DNA of 64,000 bases from Paracholeplasma manati (GTDB lineage: Bacteria; Bacillota_I; Bacilli_A; Acholeplasmatales; UBA5453), in NCBI RefSeq assembly GCF_025742995.1, contig NZ_JAOVQM010000003.1, forward strand, positions 62,001 to 126,000, in the 5' to 3' direction. Made by a program: the position numbers and the translations under genes. The notes beneath the pieces were generated by a model, which was given only the letters and a program-made list of their open reading frames with translations, did no database searches and was not told where the DNA came from. Every line of letters starts with the position of its first letter. The stretch's first letter is position 1. Shown here one piece after another: positions 7,557 to 21,148 of the stretch.

Positions 7557-7561
7557 TCCAG

Positions 7562-7591
7562 AGAAACTGCCATGCGCAGTTTCTTTTTTTT
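7562..7591 (+). terminator. dnaJ operon terminator
   Basis: AGAAACTGC/GCAGTTTCT stem with 5-nt loop and a T8 tract. Confidence 0.9.
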
Positions 7592-7656
7592 CTGCCAATA
7601 AAATGGATTGGTTTTGCGTATATTAGGTGTAAATAATCAAAAGGAGCTGACACACA

Positions 7657-8766
7657 ATGAAAAAAACGATTTTAATGGCAGTCATGTTTTTCTTTCTTTT
7701 AGCAGGTTTGGTTGGTTGTAACTTAGCACAACAAACGATTACCTACTCAGAAAATGATGTCTATGCATTATCGATGGTATCGATGGGCGATGTACTCGCA
7801 CAGGCTCAAGTTTCTCAAACGAGTACAACCATGGAAACCACCGACGAACCTGTGGTTGATGAACCCGTGGTTGATCCAGTCACAGATACTGACCCCGTAT
7901 TGGAAAAATACTTGTTGATGGTCGAAACATTCTTGAATTCAAGTGCACCACTACAAGTGATCAATCAAGCATCAGACCGTGTTGAATACGCATTTATGTC
8001 CGTATATCAAGCCAAAGATGCCCTAGGACAAACCGTTGAATATACTGTTTATTATAATGAAGTAGAAATCGCACCGGTTACCGAACCTGAAACTGAAGAT
8101 GAAACGGATGATACATCCGATGAAACCGCAGCACTTGTTGAAAGACAAGCACGTGGTGGGGATCGAAATCACGATCATGATGATCTATTCGATGATGAAG
8201 ATGGTGATGAAATTACCACTGAACTAGAAGGTCTACTCATTGTTAATGGCATTGAATATACATTGTTAGGCCGTCAAGAAGTTGAAGGCGATGAAACTGA
8301 ATATAAGTTTATCGCGCTCATCGATGAACTTAATTTCATTCGAATCAGTTATAAAACAGAAGATTCAGAACAAAAGTTTAATTTTGTTCAAATGACCGAT
8401 GGTGTCATCATCAATCGTACCAGCATTAAAGTTGAAAACGAAGATGGTGAATCCAAAGTGATGTTGAAATATCAAACAGATACGTTAGAAGCCCGTTATA
8501 CCTTTAAGTACGCGGATAATGAAGACTATGATTTATTCATCCAATATGAAATTGATCAAGATGGTGAAGAAATTGAACGTGGTATGATCAAAATTACCAT
8601 CAATGTCGATGAACTCACTGGCGAAACCACTTATACATACCAAATTGTCGGCGAAAGACATGGTCATGGATTTGGTAAAGACGATGAAATCGAACGCGGT
8701 CACCATGGTCATGGCAATGACGATGAACAAGGCAATGACAAAGGTCATCAAGACGACCGTCGTTAG
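7657..8766 (+). CDS. Predicted lipoprotein with anti-sigma-like sensor domain and His/Asp-rich tail
   Basis: 369 aa. Lipoprotein signal peptide with lipobox LVGC (Cys21), so anchored outside the membrane. An acidic Thr/Asp/Glu linker (~50-80), a HDHDD acidic patch (~170-185), beta-rich domain and a tail rich in His, Asp, Gly (HGHGFGKDD, GHHGHGNDDE). Its extracytoplasmic part parallels that of the membrane protein two genes down almost end to end (VYALSMVSMGDVL / TYSFSAISSSTLL; EGLLIVNGIEYTLLG / EGVLVLEQQSFYLEG; TTYTYQIV / NEYRYEIT). RBS AAGGAG. I know no named family. Likely partner or decoy of the anti-sigma protein, possibly metal-binding; function unproven. Confidence 0.8.
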   Translation: MKKTILMAVMFFFLLAGLVGCNLAQQTITYSENDVYALSMVSMGDVLAQAQVSQTSTTMETTDEPVVDEPVVDPVTDTDPVLEKYLLMVETFLNSSAPLQVINQASDRVEYAFMSVYQAKDALGQTVEYTVYYNEVEIAPVTEPETEDETDDTSDETAALVERQARGGDRNHDHDDLFDDEDGDEITTELEGLLIVNGIEYTLLGRQEVEGDETEYKFIALIDELNFIRISYKTEDSEQKFNFVQMTDGVIINRTSIKVENEDGESKVMLKYQTDTLEARYTFKYADNEDYDLFIQYEIDQDGEEIERGMIKITINVDELTGETTYTYQIVGERHGHGFGKDDEIERGHHGHGNDDEQGNDKGHQDDRR

Positions 8767-8799
8767 TTTTATTCAATAGAATCAACTCTATAAATGTGG

Positions 8800-8805
8800 T
8801 ATAAT
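8800..8805 (+). promoter_or_regulatory. -10 element before the ECF sigma gene
   Basis: TATAAT 22 nt upstream of the sigma start; no convincing -35. There is no terminator between the lipoprotein and sigma genes, so the trio may also be co-transcribed. Confidence 0.5.
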
Positions 8806-8826
8806 CGTCGTGATTGGAGGGGTAAC

Positions 8827-9345
8827 ATGTCATTCAATTACGACGATTATATTGACTTAATCATAGCTAAAAATGATGATGGGTTTAAAGCTGTTTATGA
8901 TGCATCCAAAAACATCGTATATGCCATCATCAGACAAAAAATCAAAGACCCCAATACCATTGAAGATTTGATGCAAGAAACCTACATCAAAGCGATTAAA
9001 AGCATCAAAAGTTATCAAAAAAATGGCAAATTCATCAAATGGTTGTCGAGCATCGCTTACAACTTGACCATGGACTATTATCGTATTAACGCAAAAGTAT
9101 CCTATCAATCCGAAGACAGTATCAATCTTCGATTTAAGACAGCCGCAGTGAACCATGAGCAACGAGCGTTGGTTGAGGCTTTGCTCAAAGCATTAGACCC
9201 CATAGAAGCAACCATTGTGCTCTATCACATCATCGATGACTATACTTTTAAAGATATTTCGAAAATGGTGGATAAACCTTTAGGTACGGTTTTATGGATG
9301 TATCAAAATGCACTAAAGAAAATGCGAACGGAGGCGACAAAATGA
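8827..9345 (+). CDS. ECF-type RNA polymerase sigma factor
   Basis: 172 aa. Region 2 (EDLMQETYIKAIKSIKSY, then WLSSIAYNLTMDYYR) and region 4 (IVLYHIIDDYTFKDISKMV, then GTVLWMYQNALKKMR) with no region 1 or 3: the extracytoplasmic-function group. Start ATG 8827 has GGAGGGG upstream; longer in-frame start at 8794 lacks a site. Stop overlaps the next gene by ATGA, the usual coupling of ECF sigma and its anti-sigma factor. Target promoters are unknown. Confidence 0.92.
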   Translation: MSFNYDDYIDLIIAKNDDGFKAVYDASKNIVYAIIRQKIKDPNTIEDLMQETYIKAIKSIKSYQKNGKFIKWLSSIAYNLTMDYYRINAKVSYQSEDSINLRFKTAAVNHEQRALVEALLKALDPIEATIVLYHIIDDYTFKDISKMVDKPLGTVLWMYQNALKKMRTEATK

Positions 9346-10496
9346 GAGATAAAGACATCAAAGCATTGTTAAAATCGACCATGGAATCACAAATTCCAGA
9401 TGTTTTGTCGCGTATTGATCTCCAGAGTATTGACATTTTGGATGCACCAAAACCACGCTTCAATGCGATTTTCAAAGAACGTTTCGCATCGATTGCGTTG
9501 ACATTAATCGCAACCACAATGTTGATTGTTGGATTGATTTCATTGGGCAGAACACCCAACAATCCAATCGAAATACCTATGACCTTAACAGCTGAAAAAA
9601 CCTATTCATTTAGTGCAATTTCATCGTCAACTTTACTCAACGCCATCGATTTAGAGCTTAACCAAACACAAAACATGATTTTACTGAGCAGTATGATGAA
9701 CCAAGAAACCCATATGAAACAACGGGTTGCCTTATTAAATCCTTATTTCAATATGATCGAACTGTTCATCAGCAGTGACGAATCCTTGACTTTTTCAGAC
9801 CCGATTGCTTCAACGTTATCGGGATATACCTACCAAGTATCGTATGAAATCGTGAGTTTGAATAATGAAACTGCCACTTATGTTTTCCATTACAACGAAA
9901 CCCAATCTGGTGATGAAACATTGACTGAAGGGGTGCTGGTATTGGAACAACAATCCTTTTACCTTGAAGGTACTAAAGTCGTCAATGGTGAAAAAACCAT
10001 CATTACGACCAAAACATATAACAATCCTTTGTTGAAAGACCTTCAATATGTCGAATTCATCTCCACAGAAGTCGCGAATACACAATGGTTTGATTATGGT
10101 GTTTATATCAACGGTGATCAAATCGAAAGTGCAGAAGTCCGATTAGAAACCATCGGTGAAAACCTTCGTATTCGATTAACTTATGAACATGAATTAGATG
10201 ACATCGAAGTCGATATCAAAGCCATGCGTGTTCTTGACAATGGAATCGCTAAGATTCGTGCTGAATATGAATATCAAGGCGATGGCTTTGAAGAAAAAGG
10301 CAGCATTTTGGTATCCGTAGAAGTAGATCCAATCCTTAATACCAATGAATATCGTTACGAAATTACCAATTCAAAAGGTGAAAAAGATGATTTCATGGGC
10401 AATCGTGGTCACCACGATTATGGTAAAGATAAAGATCATTCCGATGATGAAGATTCGGATGATGACCACCCAGGACGTGACAATAAAAATCGATAA
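9342..10496 (+). CDS. Putative membrane anti-sigma factor with large extracytoplasmic domain
   Basis: 384 aa. Cytoplasmic N-terminus of ~50 residues (MRDKDIKALLKSTMES...), one membrane helix (FASIALTLIATTMLIVGLI), then ~310 outer residues ending in a His/Asp-rich tail (GHHDYGKDKDH, then DDEDSDDDH). Topology plus 4-nt overlap with the ECF sigma gene indicates an anti-sigma factor, though I do not see a zinc-binding ZAS motif. The outer domain is paralogous to the lipoprotein upstream. GGAGG RBS 7 nt before ATG. Ligand unknown; the tail suggests metal ions (inference). Confidence 0.8.
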   Translation: MRDKDIKALLKSTMESQIPDVLSRIDLQSIDILDAPKPRFNAIFKERFASIALTLIATTMLIVGLISLGRTPNNPIEIPMTLTAEKTYSFSAISSSTLLNAIDLELNQTQNMILLSSMMNQETHMKQRVALLNPYFNMIELFISSDESLTFSDPIASTLSGYTYQVSYEIVSLNNETATYVFHYNETQSGDETLTEGVLVLEQQSFYLEGTKVVNGEKTIITTKTYNNPLLKDLQYVEFISTEVANTQWFDYGVYINGDQIESAEVRLETIGENLRIRLTYEHELDDIEVDIKAMRVLDNGIAKIRAEYEYQGDGFEEKGSILVSVEVDPILNTNEYRYEITNSKGEKDDFMGNRGHHDYGKDKDHSDDEDSDDDHPGRDNKNR

Positions 10497-17020: not shown

Positions 17021-18787
17021 ATGCCGATAGACCGTCATATAATCGATGAAATCAATGAAAAGACCGACATCGTAGCGTTAGTTAGTCCATATGTGAACCT
17101 GGTTAAAAAAGGTAAAAACTATATGGGACAATGTCCATTTCACGACGATAAAAGTCCATCTTTCTCGGTTTCACCAGAAAAACATTTAGCGAAGTGTATG
17201 GCTTGTGGTGAAGGGGGTTCACCCATCACCTTTTATCAAAAAATCAAAAATGTCTCTTTTCCTGAGGCAGTTAAAGCTTTAGCAACCCCACTCGGTATCA
17301 AAGTCGATGTGGAAATTGTTGAAAACCCGACCCTCAAAGAACATGAACTCATGCAAGAAGCAGCCAACTTCTACATGTATTATCTGAATAATTCTGCTTA
17401 TGGAAAAACCGCACTGAGTTATTTGGAAAAACGTGGTTTAACAAGTGATGATCTGAAGCATTTTTCGATTGGGTTAGCCCCAAAAGAAAAAGATGCCTTG
17501 TTTCAAATCCTTAAAAATAAGGGGTTTGACCCTACCATGATGATGGATTTAGGCTTGGTCAAGCAACGTGAAGATGGTTCGTATTATGATTTAATGATTA
17601 AACGCATCACCTTCCCGATCCATGACACCCACGGGCGTGTCGTTGGATTCTCTGGCCGTGCTTTAGAAGATGACCCTGTAAAATACTTAAATACCCCTGA
17701 GACTAAGATTTTTAAAAAAGGGGAAGTCTTGTATCATTTGTTTCAAGCATCTAAAGACATTCGTATGCAAAAAAGAGTCATTTTATATGAAGGGTTCTTC
17801 GATGTCATCGCCTCCTATAAAAGTGGTTTAGGCAACGCTGTCGCAACCATGGGGACTGCCTTAACGAAGAAGCATGCAGAACTGCTTAAGCAAGTCACTT
17901 CAGACGTGATTATCGCTTATGATGGCGATAAAGCGGGTCAATCCGCTACCATGAAAGCCATTCCTATTTTAGAAGAAGTTCGCTTACGATGCGATATCGT
18001 GAGTCTTAAAGATGGTTTAGATCCTGATGACTTTTTAAAGAAGTATGGCGTCCCTGCATATCAAGCCGCGTTTAAAGAGACCATAGACCCATTGGTATTC
18101 AGTTATGACTACCACAAAAAGGGATTGGATTTGAATAACTCCAATGACATTCAAGAATTTAAGTCTCGCATTAAAAAAATGCTTAAATTTAAAGATCAAA
18201 GTATTAGAGAGATTTATTATCGAAAACTGGCTAAAGACATCGGGTCTAGTTATGATTCGGTGATGCCAAAGGATACCCAGTTTGGTACACCTGATCAAAA
18301 ACCGGTGTTACCAAAACCAAAACCAGTGACCAATAAGTCTTTAAAGAAATACTATGGTGCGGAAATCCAGCTTTTCATCGCGATGACCCAAGATTACGAT
18401 CAAGCACTTCGCATTGAACAAGCGCTTGGTACTCAATTTGTCGCCGATATGGATCTGTTTAAATTACGAGGTAGCCTGATGTTGGGTTATTATCCAAACC
18501 ATGCAGTATTCGATATAGACACCTTTAAAGATATATTAAATCCAGATTTATTGAAAGCTTTCGAAACAAAAGTACTCAGTTCATTGACTTGGAAAATCGC
18601 GCCGATTTATAAAGAAGAAGCGGTGACTGAACTCTTAAGTGTGATGCAAACCATCACCATTGAAAAAGGGATGATACAGTTGCGAGAAAACATTTTAAAT
18701 GAACCAGAGGCATTTACCAAAGCGAACTATGCAGAACAGTTTAAACAGCTTAAAAACTCCAAACTAAAAGGCAAGGTGAACTCATGA
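17021..18787 (+). CDS. dnaG: DNA primase DnaG
   Basis: 588 aa. CHC2 zinc finger (CPFHDDKSPSF ... CMACGEGG, residues ~40-65), Toprim core with EGFFDVIA and AYDGDKAGQSA, helicase-binding C-terminus. AAGGAGG RBS. Part of the ancient dnaG-rpoD macromolecular synthesis unit; overlaps the following sigma gene by ATGA. Confidence 0.97.
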   Translation: MPIDRHIIDEINEKTDIVALVSPYVNLVKKGKNYMGQCPFHDDKSPSFSVSPEKHLAKCMACGEGGSPITFYQKIKNVSFPEAVKALATPLGIKVDVEIVENPTLKEHELMQEAANFYMYYLNNSAYGKTALSYLEKRGLTSDDLKHFSIGLAPKEKDALFQILKNKGFDPTMMMDLGLVKQREDGSYYDLMIKRITFPIHDTHGRVVGFSGRALEDDPVKYLNTPETKIFKKGEVLYHLFQASKDIRMQKRVILYEGFFDVIASYKSGLGNAVATMGTALTKKHAELLKQVTSDVIIAYDGDKAGQSATMKAIPILEEVRLRCDIVSLKDGLDPDDFLKKYGVPAYQAAFKETIDPLVFSYDYHKKGLDLNNSNDIQEFKSRIKKMLKFKDQSIREIYYRKLAKDIGSSYDSVMPKDTQFGTPDQKPVLPKPKPVTNKSLKKYYGAEIQLFIAMTQDYDQALRIEQALGTQFVADMDLFKLRGSLMLGYYPNHAVFDIDTFKDILNPDLLKAFETKVLSSLTWKIAPIYKEEAVTELLSVMQTITIEKGMIQLRENILNEPEAFTKANYAEQFKQLKNSKLKGKVNS

Positions 18788-19857
18788 ACCCAAACTACGA
18801 ATGGATTGAAAACTTGTTAAACACCTACAAAGAAACCAAAAAAGTGCCACTCAATGATGTCTTAGAAATGACTGAACTTGAGGACCACGAATTTGATGAA
18901 ATCAAGCGTGCCTTGGATCAAGCTGGTTATGAAATTACCTATGAAGAGGAAAATATCCCTCTGATTGATACCTCCGTAGATAAACCAACGGATAATTATC
19001 ATCGCTATCTCAAAGAGATGGGCGAAATCAAACTATTAACACCTGATGAAGAAAAGGACATCACCAAAAAAGTGTTTATGGGTCATGAAGCCATGGCACT
19101 AGGTGTCCAATCTGACCCAGTGGCTGAACAGGCACGCCAACAAACAATTGGCATCGCTGTTGAAGCCAAAAATAGACTCATTCTATCGAACCTTCGCTTG
19201 GTCGTGTCGATTGCGAAGAAGTCCGATGGGAAAATGGAAATGTTAGACCTCATTCAAGAGGGCACCATGGGCTTGATGAAAGCCGCAGACAAATTTGATT
19301 ATCGCATGGGCAATCGATTCTCTACTTACGCAACGTGGTGGATCAAACAATCGATTTCACGTGCGATTGCCAAACAATCGAAAACCATTCGCATTCCTGT
19401 GCATCTGGTAGAAAATTTAAATCGAATGGTCAGGATTAAAAATGAACTCAGATCGAAACTCAATCGAAACCCTTCGGATGAAGAAGTTGCAGAAGCATTA
19501 GGTATCACCCTTGAAAAACTGTCCAGTTACGAACAGCTATCTCAAGAAGTGGTATCATTAGATAAATCCGTCGGTACTGAGGAGGATGCAACATTGGCTG
19601 ATTTTATCGCTTCCAATGTCTTGAATCCTGAAGAGTCCTACATGGCAATGAAAGAAAAAGAGCACATTTCATCGCTATTGAAACAACTAGGACCAAGAGA
19701 TGAACAAGTCATGCGTTACCGTTTTGGTCTTCATGATGGGAAGTATTACACCCTTGAAGAAATAGGTTACCTCATGGGACTCACCCGCGAACGCATTAGA
19801 CAAATCATTTCAAAAAGTTTGGCAACCCTTCGTCAAACCCACAAATTGCTCAAATAA
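18784..19857 (+). CDS. Second primary-like sigma-70 factor
   Basis: 357 aa, inserted between dnaG and rpoD. Contains a region-1.1-like N-terminus, 1.2 ([16 protein letters not shown]), 2.3-2.4 ([35 protein letters not shown]), 3 and 4.2 ([20 protein letters not shown]). Compared with its neighbour RpoD, region 2.4 has KQS/S for RQA/T and position after RQI is Ile not Glu, while the -35-contacting TRERIRQ is kept. Probably recognises similar but not identical promoters. Translationally coupled to dnaG by ATGA. Looks like a tandem duplication that diverged; role unknown. Confidence 0.9.
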
Positions 19858-19870
19858 TAAGGAGTTACAC

Positions 19871-21148
19871 ATGAACTTAGAAAAAGTCATTGCCGATTTA
19901 ATCAAACTCGGTAAAAAGAATAACAACGAAGTTAATTACAGCGATGTCATCAAACACGCCCCATTTGGGTCGCCAGATTATTTGGCAATCGAAGCGGCGT
20001 TGCTTGATGAAGACATCGATATCATGAATCTTGAAGTCGAAGAAGACATCATTGATGAGATTGAAACCCCTGCCCCAGTGGTTGTGGATGAACTCGATGA
20101 AGAGGAAGAAGAGTTGGATGAAGACATTGACTTCGATCAATTGTCTTTATCTTCACTTGAAATTGAAGACATCAAAGAAGAAGAACTGCTCAACATCGAG
20201 TCTTTACCATCATCGATTAAGGTCGATGACCCAGTGCGCATGTACTTAAAAGAAATCGGTCGTATTCCGCTGTTAACCAGCGATGAAGAAGTCGATTTGG
20301 CTGTCCGTGTCAATAATGGTCGTTTTGCACAAGAACAGTTGGATGACATGAAAAATGATCAAGTCGATATCCCTGAAGAAGAAAGACTCCAACTTGAAAA
20401 CATGGTAGAAGACGCGATTTATGCGAAAAATAGATTGGTTGAAGCCAATTATCGTTTGGTCGTTTCGATTGCGAAACGTTATGTGGGTCGTGGGATGTTA
20501 TTCCTCGATTTGATTCAAGAAGGTAACATGGGCTTAATGCGTGCGGTGGATAAGTTTGATCATGAAAAAGGTTTTAAATTCTCTACCTACGCCACTTGGT
20601 GGATTCGCCAAGCCATCACTAGAGCGGTTGCTGACCAAGCCAGAACCATCCGTATTCCAGTCCATATGGTTGAAACCATCAATAAATTGGTTCGTATTCA
20701 ACGTCAATTGGTTCAAGAACTTTCCCGTGAACCTTCCCCTGAAGAAATTGGTGAACGTATGGGCATCACCGCTGAACGCGTTCAAGCGATTCAAAAGATT
20801 GCCCAAGAACCGATTTCGTTAGAAGCACCCGTAGGTGAAGAAGAGGACTCTTCATTGGGCGATTTTATCTCTGATCCAACCGCGCTTAATCCATATGAAT
20901 ATACCGTTCAAGAAATGGTTAAACGTACATTAGATGAAGTATTAGAAACCCTCACAGACCGTGAAGAAAAGGTACTTAGACTTCGTTATGGTCTTTTAGA
21001 TGGTAAAACACACACACTAGAAGAAGTGGGTAAAGAATTTGGTGTCACCAGAGAACGTATCCGTCAAATTGAGTCCAAAGCTTTACGCAAACTCAGACAA
21101 CCAAGTCGTCAAAAGAAACTCAAAGATTTCAACTTAACGAGAAAATAA
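19871..21148 (+). CDS. rpoD: RNA polymerase primary sigma factor RpoD (SigA)
   Basis: 425 aa. Region 1.1, an acidic linker (~60-100), 1.2 ([17 protein letters not shown]), 2.4 ([20 protein letters not shown]), 3.0-3.2 ([15 protein letters not shown]) and 4.2 ([20 protein letters not shown]) are canonical. AAGGAG RBS. The many TTGACA/TATAAT promoters in the window fit this factor. Stop overlaps trmK start (TAATG). Confidence 0.97.

Follow-up and report, generated by a model that had tools for sequence, protein, structure and literature searches.

The window analysed here, a stretch of 64,000 nucleotides of the Paracholeplasma manati genome (1.87 Mb in 28 contigs), contains a trio of genes located 3' of dnaK-dnaJ and a terminator-like hairpin. 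The trio encodes a lipoprotein, an ECF sigma factor and a one-pass membrane protein that is the anti-sigma candidate, and the coordinates given in an earlier note on this DNA proved right. By identity of the sigma factor, the nearest named relatives are Acholeplasmataceae bacterium UBA6235 (97%) and Paracholeplasma vituli (73%), a cultured species that has the trio as well (L112). The features of the locus are as follows.

7560..7586, + strand: terminator-like stem-loop between dnaK-dnaJ and the trio
7595..7622, + strand: ECF-type promoter motif, CCAATAAA-N14-CGTATA, 34 nt 5' of the lipoprotein start codon (0.02 expected per window by shuffling)
7657..8766, + strand: lipoprotein (P0001), 369 residues, lipobox LVGC (Cys21); duplicates the outer domain of the anti-sigma as a free protein
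7741..8667, + strand: residues 29-337 of the lipoprotein, the part with homology to the outer domain of the anti-sigma (hhalign E 1.1e-51)
8800..8805, + strand: TATAAT within TGGTATAATCGTCGT, probably part of a housekeeping promoter that serves sigma and anti-sigma; seven loci of the window's clade share it in an alignment by eye
8827..9345, + strand: ECF sigma factor, 172 residues, sigma2 and sigma4 only (Pfam PF04542, PF08281)
9342..10496, + strand: anti-sigma candidate (P0003), 384 residues, with a short cytoplasmic N-terminus, one transmembrane segment, an outer beta domain and a His/Asp-rich tail
9474..9545, + strand: transmembrane segment of the anti-sigma candidate, about residues 45-68 by hydropathy (helix 40-68 in the AlphaFold2 model)
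9582..10385, + strand: outer domain of the anti-sigma candidate, residues 81-348, homologous to the lipoprotein, with two helices and about 14 antiparallel strands (hhalign, AlphaFold2)

The sigma factor, whose length is counted from the ATG adjoining the ribosome-binding site, is composed of Sigma70_r2 (4.9e-12) and Sigma70_r4_2 (5.7e-6), both above the Pfam cut-off, with no sigma1 or sigma3, and scores 65 bits against TIGR02937 sigma70-ECF (cut-off 42.9). Its stop codon overlaps the start codon of the membrane protein as ATGA at 9342-9345, the coupling already described in the earlier note. No Pfam anti-sigma domain was detected in P0003, and neither this protein nor the lipoprotein matched a Pfam or NCBIfam family. 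A sigma/anti-sigma pair is suggested by the position of a protein with a single transmembrane segment directly downstream of the sigma, an arrangement conserved in the beta-type loci. Elsewhere in the window (18784-21148), two full-length primary-type sigma factors of 357 and 425 residues are encoded in tandem behind dnaG.

Homology between the lipoprotein and the anti-sigma outer domain

The lipoprotein had previously been aligned by eye with nearly the whole outer domain of the membrane protein. BLASTP relates the two window proteins with 22% identity over 279 residues (E 1e-7), and the profile-profile comparison of nine lipoproteins with eleven anti-sigmas in hhalign reveals an overwhelming similarity, with a probability of 100 and the E-value given above over 257 columns. 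The aligned span extends from just after the lipobox or the transmembrane segment to just before the tails. A profile built from anti-sigma outer domains alone detects the lipoproteins of other loci with E-values of 1e-21 to 7e-69, and cognate pairs compared with phmmer reach 4.6e-71 (G025), 3e-52 (G043) and 1.3e-45 (G023), against 1.5e-4 at best for a reversed-sequence control. A single phmmer comparison of P0001 with P0003 found nothing, which places the window pair at the divergent end of the family. In agreement with the profiles, the AlphaFold2 models of both proteins have the same layout, in which helices lead into an extended antiparallel meander of 12-14 beta strands (mean pLDDT 84.8 for the anti-sigma and 75.6 for the lipoprotein). 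On these comparisons, the mature lipoprotein is homologous to nearly the entire outer domain of the anti-sigma candidate. This bears out the view of the earlier note that the sensor domain also exists as a free copy anchored at the surface, namely the lipoprotein.

Several known domains were considered for this region and rejected. Foldseek searches of the outer-domain models against solved structures gave no significant match, the best E-value being 0.1, and nitrobindin-type barrels reached a TM-score of 0.41 of the target. A LolA/RseB-like fold found no Foldseek match with E below 0.1, LolA3 of Porphyromonas giving E 0.93 and a TM-score of 0.15-0.22, and no other known fold gave a significant Foldseek or profile match. 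P0001 and P0003 both lack RsgI_M (PF23750) and the DINPS motif, at which RsgI is known to cut itself, and are thus not members of the RsgI family. An RsiV-type DUF3298 receptor is equally without a Pfam match in P0003, and no such match recurs among 40 lipoproteins. The trio defines a sensor domain that is widespread and unclassified.

The two copies of this domain do not evolve at the same rate. In 137 of 149 close comparisons, the outer domain of the anti-sigma shows the faster change and the lipoprotein the slower, which fits retention of a binding function by the lipoprotein. The distances within the lipoproteins and those within their anti-sigmas have a correlation of 0.77, a value from which shared ancestry is not separated out, and the cognate lipoprotein is not generally the nearest match of each anti-sigma. 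In one clade of Acholeplasmataceae, lipoproteins and anti-sigmas group by lineage and not by gene (SH-aLRT 97), and the AU test against a single lipoprotein clade is borderline (p 0.058 with 87 rows, 0.043 with 59 rows). This grouping suggests a second copying event between anti-sigma and lipoprotein domains.

Conservation of the trio, its promoter motif and the site-bearing genes

A search with the sigma alignment alone yielded 80 loci, many of them from metagenome assemblies, in which the trio recurs across Acholeplasmatales and Izemoplasmatales. A beta-type lipoprotein adjoins the sigma pair in 34 of the 44 intact loci that have a beta-type anti-sigma and enough flank, mostly upstream of the sigma and elsewhere downstream of the anti-sigma; a 35th locus (L127) has a beta-type lipoprotein-like protein with no recognised lipobox. 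Two loci carry tandem duplicated lipoproteins next to one sigma pair (L167, 2819-4941, and L126, 6790-9295), and in L126 only one of the two has a promoter site. Among 150 genomes of the order, nearly all strong matches to the lipoprotein profile have a sigma of this subfamily as a neighbour. The exceptions are G048 and G058, where the lipoprotein is present but located away from the sigma, G005, where an intact lipoprotein has neither a site nor a neighbouring sigma, and contig ends and relics. The lipoprotein is thus rarely found in a genome without the subfamily sigma; of the two results that the earlier note would have taken as evidence against its reading, a lack of profile similarity and a wide occurrence of the lipoprotein without the sigma pair, neither was found.

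The trio also decays as a whole. A truncated lipoprotein and the promoter are left in G029, from which sigma and anti-sigma are gone, and only broken or odd copies are left in G014. In G002, one contig end (C9 end, L201) retains dnaJ, the promoter and the first few codons of the lipoprotein gene, and another contig (C7 start, L085) opens with a TnpB-like end followed by a frame that joins lipoprotein-like and anti-sigma-like pieces; here the trio has apparently been destroyed. This joint decay counts for the three-gene switch proposed below.

The promoter motif, CCAATAAA-N14-CGTATA or CGTTTA, was spotted by eye on the trio loci and then tested on whole genomes. An exact copy is located within 160 nt before 37 of the 43 lipoprotein genes, with a near-match at five of the other six, and before none of 445 other genes of the same loci, the definition of the motif and part of its test sharing these loci. 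The sites lie at a median of 31 nt 5' of the start codon, with a spacer of 14 in 33 of the 37, and 60 sites are found in 720 kb against 2 for the reversed pattern. In sigma-first operons, the sigma and the downstream lipoprotein usually each have their own site. No site is present at loci with an RsgI-type anti-sigma, and no exact one in the f3 families. Textbook ECF promoters have AAC in the -35 box and CGT in the -10 box; the -10 element CGTATA is conserved here, whereas the -35 element, CCAATAAA, lacks AAC. The lipoprotein gene looks as if it carries the promoter of this very sigma. From the co-occurrence of motif and sigma we infer that the sigma recognises the motif, in which case its targets probably include the lipoprotein, the copy of its own sensor. 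Such a promoter would give the arrangement a direction, namely that of feedback.

Exact sites are few in each genome, numbering four in that of P. manati (G000) and one to four in each of eight relatives, and the reversed pattern is near zero. Sites with one mismatch in G000 were discarded as mostly chance-like, since they total 17 including the four exact ones, against five for the control pattern. The genes behind exact sites encode secreted S8 subtilases (G000, G001, G004, G150, G152, G154, G155), an HI0933-like flavoprotein (G000, G001, G002, G003, G004), a Zn-ribbon membrane protein (G000, G001, G003), DUF2202 proteins (G151, G155) and RsgI_M lipoproteins (G152, G154, G035). At L206, L207, L211, L214 and L234 the site has no plausible gene behind it. 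The best evidence that the site-bearing genes are likely true targets is the recurrence of the same kinds of gene in different orders. Neither the promoter nor this small regulon with its secreted subtilase was part of the earlier reading.

The subtilase of G000 (C8; L196 1050-3320, minus strand), which carries Ig-like and List_Bact repeats, lies directly behind its site and has equivalents in several genomes. The Zn-ribbon gene of G000, encoding 114 residues, carries a site and lies directly downstream of the only PrsW gene of the genome (G000:C1:411255-413070; L194 1756-3567), and the neighbours in G003 (L202) resemble this pair. Besides PrsW, the genome encodes one RseP-type protease.

A possible surface-stress switch and its alternatives

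The computed trio, homology, conserved promoter and small regulon lead us to propose a surface-stress switch of three genes, in which a duplicate of the sensor domain would provide the feedback, a reading that we regard as on balance probable. At rest, the anti-sigma would hold the sigma through its short N-terminus, as the gene coupling and the membrane topology suggest. A signal at the bare membrane surface would act on the outer beta domain, and the anti-sigma would then be inactivated, probably by regulated proteolysis through the encoded PrsW and RseP proteases. The free sigma would transcribe from CCAATAAA-N14-CGTATA promoters the lipoprotein gene, the secreted subtilase and a few others, and read-through from the lipoprotein promoter would reach sigma and anti-sigma in addition to their housekeeping-type promoter. 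The lipoprotein, as a tethered copy of the sensor domain, would soak up the same ligand, or bind and shield the anti-sigma outer domain as MucB does for MucA, and the response would shut off. The orders in question have no cell wall (PMC10868615), and with a protease in the regulon our guess is therefore that the signal is surface protein or membrane damage. Counting against a feedback switch are the unlinked lipoproteins of G048 and G058, the orphan of G005, the RsgI_M partners described below, the f3 families with no exact site and the -35 element without AAC.

The brake could act by direct contact instead of as a ligand sponge. In this version, the lipoprotein would be a co-receptor in a standing complex with the anti-sigma outer domain, protecting it from the first protease until a ligand or a misfolded surface protein pulls the lipoprotein away, and its induction would reset the switch. 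RseB and MucB are LolA-like proteins with no known homology to the outer parts of RseA and MucA, and the outer domain has no significant fold match to LolA-type proteins; we consider such a guard somewhat unlikely. Homologous domains often pair, however, and both proteins are anchored at the same membrane face; the correlation of their distances, from which ancestry is not separated, points the same way, and MucB, which responds to lipids, is known to shield MucA (PMC7400510). It is also rather doubtful that the lipoprotein is a plain output of the regulon, for instance a shield or binding protein at the surface with the ligand-recognising fold of the sensor and no signalling role, because it almost always adjoins the sigma pair and decays with it, whereas the subtilase and other targets lie elsewhere. 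Its own sigma-type promoter, its stronger conservation relative to the anti-sigma copy, its duplication in L126 and L167 and its occasional location away from the sigma would all agree with such an effector.

The feedback could, moreover, be positive. ECF operons are usually positively autoregulated (PMC8103513), and a lipoprotein that captures the ligand and presents it to the anti-sigma would, once induced, amplify the response; no feature of the trio favours amplification over damping, and we find this co-sensor improbable. The earlier note had pointed to the His/Asp-rich tails and raised the possibility that a divalent metal is sensed. These tails are indeed present on both window proteins, but they vary freely between lineages and are not a family trait: one clade has acidic tails that lack His, and the tails of Izemoplasmatales are neither acidic nor rich in His. 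Since they lose His or vanish in relatives that keep trio and promoter, and no metal transporters are among the site-bearing genes seen, a metal sensor acting through them appears highly improbable.

Compared with named systems, the proposed switch shares with the RsiW-PrsW and RsiV pairs a sigma2-sigma4 protein, a coupled one-pass anti-sigma, probable autoregulation with a CGT-type -10 element, and PrsW and RseP in the genome. It differs from them in an outer domain that belongs to no Pfam or NCBIfam family, in its -35 element and in having a paralogue of the outer domain as part of the unit. In RseA-RseB and MucA-MucB, too, the anti-sigma is accompanied by an extracytoplasmic protein of its own gene that is plausibly a brake, and the regulon includes an envelope protease; in the trio, in contrast, this partner is a lipoprotein that duplicates the sensor domain. 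In the sigE-cseA-cseBC system of Streptomyces coelicolor, a lipoprotein of the sigma operon, CseA, damps the system, and deletion of cseA raises the sigE promoter (PMC6767563). That system differs in having no anti-sigma and a sigE that does not regulate itself; CseA is believed to target a sensor kinase, and it is not reported to be homologous to the sensor. SigI-RsgI systems, which have an RsgI_M or SEAL domain and in which the periplasmic domains of RsgI cut themselves (PMC12203970), are linked to the trio through a sister trio with RsgI_M on both anti-sigma and lipoprotein, and through the RsgI_M lipoproteins that appear, in certain genomes, in the regulon of the sigma described here. P0001 and P0003 are nevertheless devoid of RsgI_M and DINPS, and the open-licence literature searched describes no lipoprotein copy for known RsgI systems.

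A search of the open-licence literature produced no account of a sigma that has, in its operon and its regulon, a lipoprotein duplicating the sensor domain of the cognate anti-sigma. The apparent control of the lipoprotein by this sigma suggests a built-in feedback brake not seen in named systems. If real, this brake would represent a decoy-receptor style of feedback in bacterial transmembrane signalling. The same search found no extracytoplasmic-response pathway of this kind for wall-less bacteria, for which the present analysis provides the sequence of a promoter, a regulon of small size and a unit of three defined proteins.

Three types of trio can be distinguished: beta anti-sigma with beta lipoprotein, as in the window; RsgI_M on both proteins (L082 in G000, G005, G030); and a beta anti-sigma with an RsgI_M lipoprotein (for example L097). 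L173 combines a beta anti-sigma with two lipoproteins, one of the RsgI_M and one of the beta type. The sister trio of G000 (G000:C3:166.6-169.9 kb; L082 2638-5942) consists of a sigma, an RsgI_M anti-sigma and an RsgI_M lipoprotein, with DINPS in both of the latter. A beta-type anti-sigma stands beside an RsgI_M lipoprotein in L076, L079, L086 (no recognised lipobox), L096, L097, L098, L102, L103 and L189; with the two domains being unrelated, a matching domain is not always needed. We tentatively put forward, as a possible generalisation, a circuit of wall-less Bacilli in which an ECF sigma drives, as a stoichiometric brake, a tethered duplicate of the domain with which its anti-sigma senses the signal. 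It would have been built from two unrelated folds, the beta meander and RsgI_M, with the anti-sigma outer domain recopied from the lipoprotein in at least one lineage. G000 contains a third set on contig C7 (L083 8478-10153), comprising a sigma, a one-pass protein of 202 residues and a lipoprotein of 160 residues. No homology was found between the latter two, and the set is conserved in G003 and G004.
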